NCBI GenBank assembly: GCA_002368155.1
Contig: AP018180.1
Coordinates: 6,690,561-6,754,560 of the forward strand
Direction: 5' to 3'
From: Nostoc carneum NIES-2107
Lineage (GTDB): Bacteria > Cyanobacteriota > Cyanobacteriia > Cyanobacteriales > Nostocaceae
Length of the DNA: 64,000 bases
The notes below the pieces were generated by a model, which saw only the letters and a program-made list of their open reading frames with translations, did not search any database and was not told the DNA's origin. The position numbers and the translations under genes were made by a program. This document shows, piece after piece, positions 6,629-20,204 of the stretch. Every line of letters begins with the position of its first letter. The stretch's first letter is position 1.

Positions 6629-7396
6629 TGATGCTTGTTGACCTTATATCCTGATAAGTCTAGCTGGATGTAGTGAAAAAATAGTGAAATTGGGTATCTT
6701 CCCCAATCAACTCAGCAGTCTGGAAGAACGCTTTTCTGGGTTTAATGACTAATTCATAATTTGTAATTCAGAAAATAGCGATAAGCCTAAAACTCTTTAG
6801 TCGGCACAGTTTCAGGTGCAGTCTAAATCCTTATCTGAAACTCTATTACGAATTAAGCTGATACGCGCCTAAATCAAATATTCTGGCGTTAGGACTGTCA
6901 AGGGTCAAGAGTCCAAAGTCCAAACTAGCCTTTGACTCTGGACTCTTGACTTTTGACAACCTGAGTGCGAAATATACAATTTAAATGCGTAACAGCTTAT
7001 CAATTAAGAATTACGAATTTTTCATCTTCCCCTTGTTTCTCCCTTATATGCTTTCCCTGATGTCAGTTGATCTCTTGTACTTCTTGGTATTCAGTCAAGA
7101 GTCTCTTCTTGACAGATACCCCTTAAGTACAAATACTCCCAAGTATTTCTATAACTTAGGATAACTTGCTGCTGTTGACCAAGCTATTTTTTTAAGTTAA
7201 ACAACATACTATTTACGGATTTGCTTCTCATTATGTTGTATTAATTCTTGGAGTAAGTTAAAACCCTTAGTGTATAGTAATACTAATTTTGTCAGTAAAT
7301 ACCGCTAAATTAGTACAACTTATTAATAATTCCGAAAACTCTACAATGACGTTTTTACTAGCCTCCATAAAAATTGGGGAAACGAGGATCTAAGCA
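6629..7396. other. intergenic region, 768 bp, between divergent genes
   Basis: No gene is seen. It carries a GTCAAGAGTCCAAAG-type inverted repeat at 6896-6958 and is otherwise AT-rich with scattered short direct repeats. A GAGGA ribosome binding site precedes the ATG at 7397. Promoters for the two divergent genes must lie here, but none is convincing by eye. Confidence 0.5.
6896..6958. repeat. GTCAAGAGTC-type inverted repeat
   Basis: The left half reads TGTCAAGGGTCAAGAGTCC and the right half GGACTCTTGACTTTTGACA, so the segment could fold into a long imperfect hairpin. Related GTCAAGRGTCAA units occur at about 15398-15423 and about 51070-51135. It is a dispersed intergenic repeat of unknown function. 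Confidence 0.7.
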
Positions 7397-16090: not shown

Positions 16091-17875
16091 CTAGAAGGTA
16101 AAGGTGGTTCTGAGTGTACCGATGAATGCGTTTTCTTCGGCATTGTTTTGGCCAGGAGCTCTCAACCAGATAACACCAGGTGTAACGGAGATATTATCAG
16201 ACACGCGATATTTGTAGAAACCTTCAACGTGGATTGGTGCATTACCACCAGCAACTCCACCAGGTACTACACGGTTACGTGCGTAAGGTTCAGCACCTGC
16301 GAAAATACCCAATACGTTACCTCTCTTACCAAAGTCAGGTAGAGCTATACCACCACCATAACTCCAAGCTTCAAAGTCATCTCCAGCACCTACACCATTG
16401 ACATCGTGGTAAGTGACGAAGCCACTCAGTGACAAGTTGTTACTGGGTCTAAATGCTGCAGAAACACCATAAGAGTTACTGTTAGCTGCGGTTTGTACAA
16501 GTGTATTGCCGAGATAGTTGGCTTGACCAGTACCAACAACACCGCCTGTTAGACCGTTGTTGCCATTCAGACCGGCACCAGAATCAAATAGGGCAGTACC
16601 AGCAGCATGATAACCGTGAACATAGGTAGCAGCCAATGCCAAGCGATCGCCAACTGCAAAGTTCAACTGTCCTAAAGCAGCATAGCTACCATTGAATAAA
16701 CCTGTATTGTTACCAGGGTTATTAGCATCTGAAGCTAAGTAACCTACGGTAAGGGAGCTGGGTTTAAAGATACTACCACCGCTGCTAAAAGGTAGATTAA
16801 CAGCGATACCAGCACCACCACCAATCCGATAGATGGGGCTTTCAGAGGCAAAGGTAGTTAAAGCTCCGTTACCACCGTCATCTCCATCATGGAAATAAGG
16901 ATTGTTAACAGCAGCATAGTGGTCATGACGACCACCACTAGCAGCAAGATAAACTTGTGCTGGGCCGATGGGAGCTTCGTAGGTTAATCTATCAATTCTG
17001 ACACCATTATTACCAGTGCTGCCAACTTGATAGGTTTGAGTTCCTTCTCTGGTACCATTCAGTGGGGTATTGAGAATATTATTAGCTTGGTCTCTCAAGG
17101 AGAAAGCGGAAGCGTTACCTGCAGCTAGACGAGTTGTTAACTTGTCTCTACCAGTGAAGCTGGTTTCCAACGCCAAGCGAACTCTGTCTTGGAATACAGT
17201 ATTGTTCGCATCACCTGTTCTGCCACCAAAAGCATCGCTCACAGCAAAAATAGCTTCACCGACTAGTTTGGTGGTAGTGGAGAACTGATTTGCTTCCAAT
17301 TCAGCAGTACGTGCTTCTAAGGAATCAACGCGACCGCGTAGGGTTGCTAGTTCTGCAGAAAATTCTTCTTGTAACCGCTGTAAGGTTGCTAAATCTTGCT
17401 TGGTTACCAAATCAGCTGTTGCTGTGGCAATCAATTCGTTAACGCGGTCTAAACAAGCATTCAAGCCAGCAGCAAATTCATAACGGGTTAAAGCACGGTT
17501 ACCGCGATAAGTACCATTTGGATAACCTGCGATACAACCATAGCGCTCAACCAACGATTGCAATGCTTGGAAAGCCCAGTCAGTTGGTTGCACATCGGAG
17601 AATTGTGAAACCGATGTCACTTGAGCCTGAGAGTTACTGCTACCTTCTTTGCTGTAGCGGTTAACTTGATCTAAAACTTTGGTATCGTCGCTTGCAGGAG
17701 CTGCTTGCGCGATGATTTCTGCTGCCTTGGGAGCGATTTCAACTGCTGCTTGTTTATCAGCTGCAGATACTTCTGTTGTAGTATTGGGAGCTGCCATTGC
17801 TGATGCGGAAACTAGCAGCGTTGCTCCTAAAACTGCTGGACTTACGACCAGTGATTTCCATAATATATGAGACAT
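16091..17875 (-). CDS. SLH-domain OprB-type outer membrane porin (iron-uptake porin family)
   Basis: This 594-residue protein is a major cyanobacterial outer membrane porin. From ATG 17875 (GAGGAG ribosome site upstream) it has a signal peptide ending near ASAMA (about residue 28). One SLH domain follows at about 93-150 ('DVQPTDWAFQALQSLVERYGC...RYEFAAGLNACLDRV'), which binds peptidoglycan-linked polymer. A coiled coil spans about 155-197, and a beta-barrel rich in Gly/Asn and aromatics ends in the outer-membrane aromatic terminus (TTFTF). An in-frame start 16 codons upstream is less likely. It probably passes small solutes or inorganic ions. It is monocistronic with a good terminator. Confidence 0.9.
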   Translation of the reverse strand: MSHILWKSLVVSPAVLGATLLVSASAMAAPNTTTEVSAADKQAAVEIAPKAAEIIAQAAPASDDTKVLDQVNRYSKEGSSNSQAQVTSVSQFSDVQPTDWAFQALQSLVERYGCIAGYPNGTYRGNRALTRYEFAAGLNACLDRVNELIATATADLVTKQDLATLQRLQEEFSAELATLRGRVDSLEARTAELEANQFSTTTKLVGEAIFAVSDAFGGRTGDANNTVFQDRVRLALETSFTGRDKLTTRLAAGNASAFSLRDQANNILNTPLNGTREGTQTYQVGSTGNNGVRIDRLTYEAPIGPAQVYLAASGGRHDHYAAVNNPYFHDGDDGGNGALTTFASESPIYRIGGGAGIAVNLPFSSGGSIFKPSSLTVGYLASDANNPGNNTGLFNGSYAALGQLNFAVGDRLALAATYVHGYHAAGTALFDSGAGLNGNNGLTGGVVGTGQANYLGNTLVQTAANSNSYGVSAAFRPSNNLSLSGFVTYHDVNGVGAGDDFEAWSYGGGIALPDFGKRGNVLGIFAGAEPYARNRVVPGGVAGGNAPIHVEGFYKYRVSDNISVTPGVIWLRAPGQNNAEENAFIGTLRTTFTF

Positions 17876-18279
17876 TTTGTCTTTTCTCCTCACACCTTGT
17901 ATAGATAATTGTTTTCGTTGCACCTAATTCTCAAATATGCGACATCTCGTTAGGGCCTTTCGATGAGGCATAGTTGCCACTACTACAATTCTAGTTTTTG
18001 CGAAGCTAATCACCGATTAACTTGATGTTAAATATTGATGGAATTAACTTATGCAAAAACACACCTTTATAGCATATCATTATAAAACATCTCAGGCAGA
18101 TGACAACATCACAGCGATCGCCTAAACAACTGTCACACTCTTAACCTAATATATTTCTTCTGGGAGTAGCTTTAGAGAATTTACTAAATTCCTATTTACC
18201 TAAGTAGTAAGTATGAACTACGTACACCAGAATGCATAAAAATTAGTTTTTCTGCTTCTGCCTCCAGAATTTTTTTAGG
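17876..18279. other. intergenic region, 404 bp, upstream of the porin gene
   Basis: It holds the porin leader with its GAGGAG ribosome site just before ATG 17875. No gene, strong hairpin or recognised operator is seen. The spacing suggests that the dehydratase and porin genes, although co-directional, are transcribed separately. Confidence 0.5.
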
Positions 18280-18561
18280 TCAGTTAATTTGGGAAATTAC
18301 CTCTGCTAGATGAAAATCTTTTGGTGTTAAACCACCTGCGTCATGTGTGGTTAATTGGATTTTCACCTTGTTATAGGAAATCTCTATATCAGGATGATGT
18401 CCTGCGGACTCAGAAGGTTCCACTAATTTGTTAACAAACTCAATTGCTTGAATAAAATTTTTAAAAGTACGCGTAGTCTTTAAGTTAGCTCCTTCAACAG
18501 TCCAGCCTGAAAGCCCACTTACTTTTTCTTGAATTTCCGTCTCAGTGAGTAGCTGCACCAT
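18280..18561 (-). CDS. 4a-hydroxytetrahydrobiopterin dehydratase (PCD/DCoH)
   Basis: The 93-residue product is a full-length pterin-4a-carbinolamine dehydratase. It has the family signature 'SAGHHPDIEISYNKVKIQLTTHDAGGLTPKD', with catalytic histidines H55, H56 and H73, and 'GWTVEGANLKTTRTFKNFIQAIEFVNKL' ahead of it. The enzyme dehydrates pterin carbinolamine in the recycling of the hydroxylase cofactor. ATG 18561 is chosen because GGAG lies 9 nt upstream; a TTG at 18570 would overlap that site. The gene lies about 150 bp past the terminator of the structured RNA described here. Confidence 0.9.
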   Translation of the reverse strand: MVQLLTETEIQEKVSGLSGWTVEGANLKTTRTFKNFIQAIEFVNKLVEPSESAGHHPDIEISYNKVKIQLTTHDAGGLTPKDFHLAEVISQIN

Positions 18562-18709: not shown

Positions 18710-18756
18710 AAAAACTATCCGCTCTGATTTAGATCGGATAATCTAAGTCAGAGCGG
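18710..18756 (-). terminator. strong intrinsic terminator of the structured RNA
   Basis: On the minus strand CCGCTCTGA-C-TTAGAT pairs with ATCTAA-A-TCAGAGCGG around a 6-nt loop (18719-18756). A U5 run follows (18714-18710). The 15 pairs with a single mismatch make it one of the best terminators in the window. It closes a transcript coming from the psbD side and does not belong to the dehydratase gene, which starts beyond it. Confidence 0.88.
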
Positions 18757-19005
18757 TCTAGTCGGGTCTTCAGGTTGCAACCAGACTGCCGGAAGGAACT
18801 CCGTGCATCAGCCTAGCTACTTGAGCTACACTTAGTATCTCTAAGAGAACTAAGGCTAACTTTTAGAGAACAGCCCCGGCACACAGCCGGCTAACTGCAA
18901 CCTGATGACCCATGCGTTTACTACTTTCTATCATGGGCATCACCTCCTTGTTGCCTAAGCGGTCTTAGTCTCAATAAGGCAGAGTATCTTTACTCTGGGT
19001 TTAGA
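18757..19005 (-). ncRNA. candidate structured RNA between psbD and the dehydratase gene
   Basis: Reading the minus strand, about 250 nt fold into a multibranched structure. A long-range helix joins 18907-18911 and 18896-18904 with 18764-18768 and 18771-18779 (5 + 9 pairs with a 2x2 loop). Inside it are CCGGC/GCCGG (18876-18890), AGGCTAA/TCAGCCT (18853-18859 with 18808-18814) enclosing CTTAGT/ACTAAG, and AGCT/AGCT. Upstream are CAGAGT/ACTCTG and a CCCATG/CATGGG hairpin (18909-18914 with 18932-18937). The latter excludes the GGGTC part of the long helix. A strong terminator follows. No known RNA family is recognised; it was compared mentally with tmRNA, 6S, SRP, RNase P, glutamine riboswitches and introns. 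Confidence 0.6.
18863..18934 (-). CDS. 23-codon ORF with a near-perfect Shine-Dalgarno sequence
   Basis: Within the structured RNA, ATG 18934 opens a 23-residue frame beginning MIESSK and ending CAGAVL before TAA. It is preceded 8 nt upstream by GGAGG inside AAGGAGGTGAT, which is fully complementary to the 16S rRNA 3' end. The start codon lies in one arm of the CCCATG/CATGGG hairpin. The peptide has no membrane segment and resembles no known small photosystem subunit. It may be a leader peptide, a small regulatory protein, or a coding part of a dual-function RNA. The ribosome site is strong evidence; function is unknown. Confidence 0.5.
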   Translation of the reverse strand: MIESSKRMGHQVAVSRLCAGAVL

Positions 19006-19057
19006 ACCTTCAATAAATATAGCACATAAATTTTCTTTAATTCACCAACAACTAGAT

Positions 19058-19148: not shown

Positions 19149-20204
19149 TTAGAGAGCATTACCACGAGGTAGCACTTCTTCAGGGAATACAAATTGTTCG
19201 TGGGGCTGATCTTGAGGAGCCATCCAAGCACGGATACCCTCGTTCAGCAAAATGTTTTTGGTATAGAATGTTTCAAATTCTGGGTCTTCAGCCGCCCGCA
19301 ATTCCTGCGATACGAAGTCGTAAGCCCGCAGGTTGAGAGCGATACCGACGATGCCCACTGCTGCCATCCACAGACCTGTGACTGGCACAAACAGCATGAA
19401 GAAGTGCAACCAGCGTTTGTTGGAGAAGGCAATCCCGAAAATCTGTGACCAGAAACGGTTTGCAGTCACCATTGAGTAGGTTTCTTCTGATTGGGTGGGG
19501 TTGAAGGCGCGGAAGGTGTTCGCGGCTTCTCCGTCTTCAAACAGGGTATTTTCCACTGTGGCACCGTGAATCGCACACAGCAATGCACCACCCAACACAC
19601 CTGCTACTCCCATCATGTGGAAGGGGTTGAGGGTGAAGTTATGGAATCCTTGTACAAATAAGATGAAGCGGAAAATTCCTGCTACTCCAAAGCTCGGTGC
19701 AAAGAACCAGCTTGATTGTCCCAAGGGGTACATCAAGAACACGCTGACAAACACTGCAATCGGTGCAGAAAATGCCAAGGCGTTATAGGGGCGGATTCCT
19801 ACTAGACGAGCAATTTCAAACTGCCGCAACATGAAGCCAATTAATCCAAAGGCTCCGTGTAGCGCCACGAATGTCCATAACCCCCCAAGTTGACACCAAC
19901 GAGTGAAGTCTCCTTGTGCTTCTGGCCCCCACAGCAGCAGGAGGGAATGTCCCAAACTATCGGCTGGGGTGGATACAGCTACTGTGATAAAGTTACAGCC
20001 TTCTAAATAAGAAGATGCTAAACCGTGGGTGTACCATGACGTAACGAAGGTTGTGCCTGTGAGCCAACCGCCTAGTGCTAGGAAAGCGCAGGGGAATAAC
20101 AATATTCCTGACCAACCTACGAATACAAAGCGATCGCGCTTCAACCAGTCGTCTAGAACGTCAAACCACCCTCTACTGGGGGCGCGCCCAACTGCGATGG
20201 TCAT
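19149..20204 (-). CDS. psbD: photosystem II D2 protein
   Basis: The 351-residue product is a full-length D2, one of the two reaction-centre subunits that bind P680, pheophytin, QA and the non-haem iron in the thylakoid membrane. The N-terminus '[28 protein letters not shown]' and the C-terminal '[12 protein letters not shown]' are canonical. The five membrane helices and the iron/QA-site motifs ('[16 protein letters not shown]', '[14 protein letters not shown]') are intact. No psbC overlaps or follows it, so this is a stand-alone psbD copy. Cyanobacteria usually have a second one in a psbDC operon, the lone copy often being stress- or high-light-responsive. GGAG lies upstream of the ATG, and it has its own -10 box and terminator. 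Confidence 0.97.

Follow-up and report, generated by a model that had tools for sequence, protein, structure and literature searches.

A single-copy structured RNA gene beside psbD in Nostoc carneum, very probably of the ncl0160 type, with a 23-codon reading frame and a predicted start-codon switch

The spacer between psbD and a pterin dehydratase gene in Nostoc carneum NIES-2107 combines complementary arms, a Shine-Dalgarno (SD) sequence and a short open reading frame (ORF), and it raises the question of whether it holds a gene in its own right and whether such a gene would act through its peptide, its RNA or both. In the current work, we describe this locus within a window of 64,000 nucleotides (contig AP018180.1, positions 6,690,561 to 6,754,560; positions below are counted from the first letter of the window) and compare it across cyanobacteria. 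On the minus strand, the spacer leading from psbD (19149-20204) to the dehydratase ORF (18280-18561; pterin-4a-carbinolamine dehydratase, Pfam PF01329) houses the RNA gene at 18710-19010. After psbD come, in order, the psbD terminator, an extended -10 element, the SD, the ORF, a variable middle and a terminator that ends at 18710. The gene is single-copy in its own genome, where four further matches span just 17-22 nt (E 0.75). Its parts and their basis are as follows.

19081-19066, minus strand: psbD terminator, distinct from the RNA's own (terminator scan)
19016-19026, minus strand: extended -10 promoter TGTGCTATATT, hexamer TATATT at 19021-19016 (sequence and motif in homologues)
near 19009, minus strand: predicted transcript start (from conserved signals)
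18954-18962, minus strand: conserved 5' motif CCGNNNAGG (in 39 sequences, conservation of 90% or more at C6, C7, A12, G13 and G14 of the first row)
18939-18949, minus strand: Shine-Dalgarno sequence AAGGAGGTGAT (sequence and homologues)
18904-18941, minus strand: start-site hairpin, the alternative fold A, GATGCCCATG with CATGGGTCATC (predicted)
18863-18934, minus strand: 23-codon ORF MIESSKRMGHQVAVSRLCAGAVL, ATG at 18934-18932 and TAA at 18865-18863 (sequence and homologues)
18896-18911, minus strand: 5' strand of long-range helix P1/P2, GGGTC plus CAGGTTGCA, within ORF codons 8-13 (covariation)
18866-18891, minus strand: 5' strands of P3 and P4, within ORF codons 15-23 (covariation)
18802-18862, minus strand: variable middle region with lineage-specific hairpins (length and sequence differ among homologues)
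18780-18801, minus strand: 3' strands of P4 and P3, GAGTTCCTTCCGGCAGTCTGGT (consensus fold, covariation)
18764-18779, minus strand: 3' strand of P1/P2, TGCAACCTG plus GACCC (consensus fold, covariation)
18710-18761, minus strand: intrinsic terminator CTAGACCGCTCT...AGAGCGGATAG plus T run (helix 5 covariation)

The architecture read from the letters in the initial annotation is present: a perfect SD (18949-18939) before a 23-codon ORF (18934-18863), a long-range helix of 14 pairs (18911-18896 with 18779-18764) with further helices inside it, and a terminator (18761-18710) apart from that of psbD (19081-19066). The terminator scan reported the psbD terminator only, and the terminator at 18761-18710 was taken from the sequence and the consensus fold. 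The SD AAGGAGGTGAT is complementary over its full length to the 3' tail of 16S rRNA. In 84 homologues, the 170 nt that precede the SD contain the motif TGTGYTANNNT 56 times, compared to 0.54 expected from mononucleotide shuffles. These signals suggest an independent transcript that starts near 19009 under a promoter of its own and ends at 18710 in a terminator of its own, and the conserved extended -10 and the terminator together lend weight to the earlier proposal of an independent small transcript. By eye, the surroundings CTAAGACCGCT of the CCGNNNAGG element (18954-18967, minus strand, in the interval between promoter and SD) resemble the rising arm CTAGACCGCT of the terminator and could pair with its falling arm.

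For the comparison, 173 cores were located in other genomes by GGAGG..ATG patterns, of which 158 were distinct; thinning by an 8-mer overlap rule gave 85 diverse homologues, with L135, L233 and loci in which no terminator pattern was found being dropped. Since the patterns used for location contain the SD and the start, counts of these two elements are partly circular, as applies to the invariance of GGAGGTGATG in 39 aligned sequences, to the presence of GGAGGTGAT in 77 of the 85 homologues, and to the start codons (ATG in 83, GTG in 2). The ORF has 23 codons in 70 homologues, 24 in eight, 17 in five, and 26 and 34 in one each, and it ends in TAA (45), TAG (35) or TGA (5).

These features bear on whether the RNA is new. 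A widespread cyanobacterial sRNA, ncl0160, was reported with 83 homologues among 89 genomes, in a survey that excluded the Prochlorococcus/Synechococcus lineage (Brenes-Alvarez et al., 2016; PMC4734099). In the portion of that paper available to us, its strongly conserved region is translatable as 23-25 amino acids, always after a possible ribosome-binding site; starts are mostly ATG with few GTG, stops are 47 TAA, 34 TAG and 2 TGA, and the RNA is described as likely translated. As far as that portion goes, the present RNA is alike in being a small independent transcript, wide in heterocystous and other cyanobacteria, with a ribosome-binding site before an ORF of that size (23 codons here; 23 or 24 in 78/85 homologues), and in its stops (45/35/5 versus the published 47/34/2) and starts (83/2). 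Because the published features fit so closely, the window's RNA is almost certainly an ncl0160 homologue, compared by published description and not by sequence, and the label "undescribed" given to it in the initial annotation has to be withdrawn. Mitschke et al. 2011a reportedly attributed the sRNA ncl0160 to Synechocystis sp. PCC 6803. In the literature searched, neither the peptide string RLCAGAVL nor, outside PMC4734099, the name ncl0160 was found.

No catalogued family accounts for the RNA, in keeping with the earlier remark that it matches none: against Rfam 15, only the window's tRNA matched at the gathering score and nothing credible appeared at E <= 10, and 20 distant homologous loci held no Rfam family at the gathering score. 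Yfr6, or Downstream-peptide (RF01704), is similar in being a cyanobacterial RNA of ~250 nt with a short ORF; it was rejected since RF01704 matched neither the window nor the 20 distant loci and its conserved part is differently placed, being, in the excerpts drawn on, the 5' UTR upstream of an ORF that encodes 33 amino acids in Prochlorococcus (further papers drawn on in part: PMC1242208, PMC2864571, PMC2518516, PMC3610870). A tmRNA was likewise set aside, as the genome carries its own elsewhere.

By DNA similarity, the RNA is present in 54 of 58 relatives, and a covariance model built from the 39-sequence alignment (R1) detected it in 307 of the 388 genomes sampled from the class (in 264 when only the 334 of good quality are counted), with one match per genome among the matches listed, except G094 with two. 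In a sample of the phylum, 134 of 386 genomes were matched, only one of them outside the class (G481, 24.5 bits), which we treat as a chance hit. The RNA is missing from some genomes, among them G007, a member of the window's own genus, f44 genomes of one genus, and the smallest genomes of family f29 (Cyanobiaceae-like); named loci are mostly Nostocales, plus Microcoleus. Residence on mobile DNA was rejected, with no blastn match in phages or plasmids and no match to one exact pattern in viral contigs. What emerges is an old, general, single-copy small-RNA gene across oxygenic cyanobacteria. One genome, G109, carries a second copy (L267, G109:C1:2023810-2023988) 5.3 kb from the intact one; it has kept the terminator and is without an SD or clear start, and from its sequence it looks decayed.

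The segment 18700-19010 folds with a minimum free energy of -121.6 kcal/mol versus -90.8 +/- 5.3 for 100 shuffles, none of which was as low (z -5.8). Among 862 strand-windows of 296 nt (six shuffles each), the RNA segment ranks 4th (plus) and 5th (minus), after 6722-7165, and in a tiling of the minus strand (510 tiles of 250 nt) whose frame was not set by the RNA, its best tile is 10th; the earlier statement that its density of arms far exceeds that of other spacers was therefore too strong. The top-folding segment, 6722-7165, contains an imperfect 28-nt inverted repeat of TCAAGAGTCC-type units at 6896-6958.

The structure stands out far more clearly across genomes, where it is far above chance. 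RNAalifold predicted 49 pairs from the 39-sequence alignment, and the 46 kept show standard pairing in 98.2% of cells. The compensatory changes that were sought in homologues were found, and the arms are kept: two-sided changes occur in 20 of the 46 pairs (107 cells), whereas shuffles give 8.4 pairs (27.3 cells) and partner-slid controls never exceed 11 pairs and 18 cells. Most of this covariation comes from P2, in which codons 11-13 pair with the 3' half (98.3% of cells paired; two-sided changes in 8/9 pairs); such changes are also present in P3 and P4 (99.6% and 98.4%; 5/18 pairs) and in the terminator helix, helix 5 (96.7%; 6/14 pairs). P1 is paired in 100% of cells, its GGGUC/GACCC being nearly invariant in the 39; in two f41 loci (L188 and L194), AAUCU/AGAUU apparently takes its place, as judged by eye. 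Comparative analysis in this way shows codons 8-23 base-paired with the RNA's 3' half in the consensus fold.

Of the 85 homologues, 70 have a +1 frame and 82 a +2 frame that stops short of 20 codons, and AGYAGY (Ser-Ser), absent from 12, lies 3, 6, 9 or 12 nt after the start in 73 (9 nt in 69), always in frame. In the 70 homologues with 23 codons, the synonymous fraction at codons 9-23 is 0.43 in frame, where 0.30 is expected, whereas the two other frames give 0.21 and 0.24; these values come from sequence pairs that are not independent and carry no p-value. Codons 2-8 show no synonymous excess in the same set (0.105 versus 0.179 expected), and an excess of third-position variability was absent in 38 sequences (0.41, 0.53 and 0.45 by codon position). 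Given the open frame and the synonymous excess in codons 9-23 but not 2-8, translation is likely and selection on the peptide is partly shown; judged from these comparisons, coding selection appears supported for the second half of the ORF only. In L134 (G043), a one-base deletion turns the ORF into a frame-shifted one of 34 codons, with the helices largely retained.

A divergent version of the gene is found in f29 genomes, which have a 17-codon ORF and a different second half of the peptide. Their loci hold GGGUCUGCU/AGCGGACCC and further helices at the places of P1, P2 and P3, and the outer layout of the terminator is similar. Among L195, L196, L198, L199, L202 and L203, a stretch of ~32 nt, AGGGTCTGCTGATCGCGGAGAACGCCGGCTGA, is identical in five and differs by one change in L202; this near-identity includes third codon positions and suggests strong selection on the RNA rather than the peptide. 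The f29 loci are picked up by R1 with E values of 3e-9 to 2e-6; conversely, R2, a model built on six f29 sequences, picks up L129, a locus from the order to which the window belongs, with an E value of 5e-10. Owing to these cross-matches and to the helices at corresponding places, the two versions are taken as one family. Among nine loci, R2 gave no match to L006 (the window's RNA) or L186, and in L248 it matched the terminator part only. Applied to 25 genomes mostly missed by R1 or blastn, it gave two matches in G109 and also hit G355, neither genome being a new find; G100 reached only E 0.04, and nothing appeared in six f29 genomes of 1.6-1.9 Mb or in 16 others.

Could the RNA, then, be simply a short mRNA for a micro-protein, with a structure that merely stabilises this mRNA or tunes its translation? 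The conservation of frame, SD, start and stop would fit, as would the published statement that ncl0160 is likely translated (in the part of PMC4734099 at hand). A plain mRNA would have no need, however, of 20 covarying pairs among 46, and the f29 loci replace the second half of the peptide yet keep the helices, which makes this explanation quite unlikely.

The neighbouring genes were considered next to the alternative that the RNA is a leader or attenuator of the dehydratase gene, or of a porin gene beyond it. In the window, the RNA lies on the same strand as both; the porin (16091-17923) is of the SLH-OprB type (PF04966 and PF00395), one of 12 OprB matches in its own genome. When 80 named loci, most of them from Nostocales, were retrieved through their dehydratase gene, 76 contained the RNA, and in two of the four misses the stretch before the dehydratase is shorter than 130 nt. 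Of 60 diverse loci fetched for synteny, 59 were assessed, L233 having no located core: psbD lies upstream in 16 and the dehydratase downstream in just 13, and the most frequent neighbour is a same-strand SLH-OprB porin downstream, in 29, with no opposite-strand porin match shown. The fetched stretch has no porin in the other 30, and where present the porin starts 0.36-2.7 kb from the ORF start, often with an intervening gene. The attenuator role suggested in the initial annotation thus keeps only its footing among close relatives, where RNA and dehydratase stay together; with no directly downstream regulated gene conserved, synteny makes it improbable for the dehydratase, and the conserved, covarying terminator helix also counts against a leader. 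We regard the leader or attenuator as very unlikely indeed.

Porin genes are a usual kind of sRNA target, and the alternative of a regulatory RNA with other RNAs or proteins as its targets has to be weighed as well. According to this alternative, the ORF would load a ribosome that frees the 3' half, for which GAGUUCCUUCCGGCAGUC, including an anti-Shine-Dalgarno-like stretch, is a candidate segment, and the peptide would be a by-product. The porin as most frequent neighbour, the lack of synonymous excess at codons 2-8, and the f29 loci, which despite a different peptide have helices where P1, P2 and P3 would lie, along with a terminator of similar layout, are all in its favor. On the other side, pairing with the leader of the neighbouring porin was rejected, no excess complementarity being seen over 29 loci (mean z -0.06), and the in-frame synonymous excess of codons 9-23, with the conserved open frame, favors a peptide that matters. 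Such a regulatory RNA is possible, though rather doubtful, and the porin link may reflect old gene order only. A link between the sRNA Yfr1 and porins is known. In the window, GGTGTGAGGAG lies at 17886-17896 (minus strand), immediately upstream of the probable ATG of the SLH-OprB porin, and GGTGTGAGGA is also in each of the six porin leaders displayed, of 29 examined; GGTGTGAGGA is complementary to CACUCCUCACACC, the conserved motif of Yfr1 as given in the part of PMC4734099 available.

The likeliest explanation is a small mRNA that gates itself and may have a second function as an RNA; it draws on an alternative fold around the start codon. The GGG of P1 is able to pair alternatively with the CCC just before the AUG, forming hairpin A. 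Across the 85 homologues, the unpaired probability of the AUG is 0.14 in the 5' part and 0.49 in the whole RNA; the AUG is more open in the whole RNA in 61 and less open in five, and the SD opens less there than in the 5' part in 13. When the 3' half was shuffled in 43 sequences (every second of the 85), this probability was 0.13 versus 0.50 with the real 3' half, which gave the higher value in 32 and the lower in two (Wilcoxon p 2.6e-9). Among the 71 homologues that have GGGUC and GACCC, hairpin A has a probability above 0.5 in the isolated 5' part in 61, and in 56 it does so while P1 likewise exceeds 0.5 in the whole RNA. Hairpin A is paired in 94.1% of cells but shows no two-sided change among 39 sequences, so that its conservation as a fold falls short of proof. 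The f29 loci gave no consistent AUG opening (L252, 0.10 to 0.18; L253, 0.27 to 0.41; L260, 0.92 to 0.62; L261, 0.89 to 0.89), and there was none in the f41 locus L249 (0.91 to 0.86). The folding model predicts that the 5' part alone hides the AUG and that the 3' half makes it accessible by capturing the strand that blocks it.

For the self-gated mRNA, the proposed sequence of events is the following. Transcription would begin at the RNA's promoter near 19009 and stop at its terminator at 18710, with the short ORF placed behind an unusually long SD. While only the 5' part has been made, a hairpin of CCCAUG with CAUGGG would close the start codon; once the 3' half has been made, it would capture GGGUC in P1 and the start site would open, such that only the complete, correctly folded RNA would be translated. 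The ribosome would then melt P1-P4 as it reads on, the product would be a small peptide, and the melted 3' half might also act elsewhere. We put the chance that this full working holds for the single-copy ncl0160-type gene at about even. A more specific version, offered tentatively and on balance unlikely, is a lineage-wide stand-alone switch whose start stays shut until the 3' half is made, with translation as the signal and the RNA, not just the 17-24-residue peptide, as the effector; here the ribosome would unfold the long-range helices and expose the conserved 3' segment.

An RNA that is carried by about four-fifths of the genomes sampled in the class, almost always as a single copy, and that joins covarying helices to a short ORF points to a general role. 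To the account of ncl0160, as known from the part of it at hand, the present work adds a covariation-supported structure, the extended -10 promoter, the 17-codon f29 version, the predicted start-site switch and the synteny with a downstream porin. With the structure and the start-site prediction, direct tests become feasible of which is needed: the peptide, the RNA or both.

Among known systems, RNAIII/hld and SgrS/SgrT, as far as the sources drawn on describe them, offer an analogy in joining a structured RNA to a short translated ORF. In the present RNA, a second function is a possibility; the dual-function RNA first suggested for this spacer, structured and at the same time encoding a peptide, is plausible. 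In hok mRNA, a local hairpin closes the nascent start site until pairing with the 3' part takes over, and the metastable start-site hairpin predicted here, displaced in turn by a 3' part, is of the same type. The outcome differs: full-length hok mRNA is the closed form, whereas the full-length RNA described here is predicted to be open.
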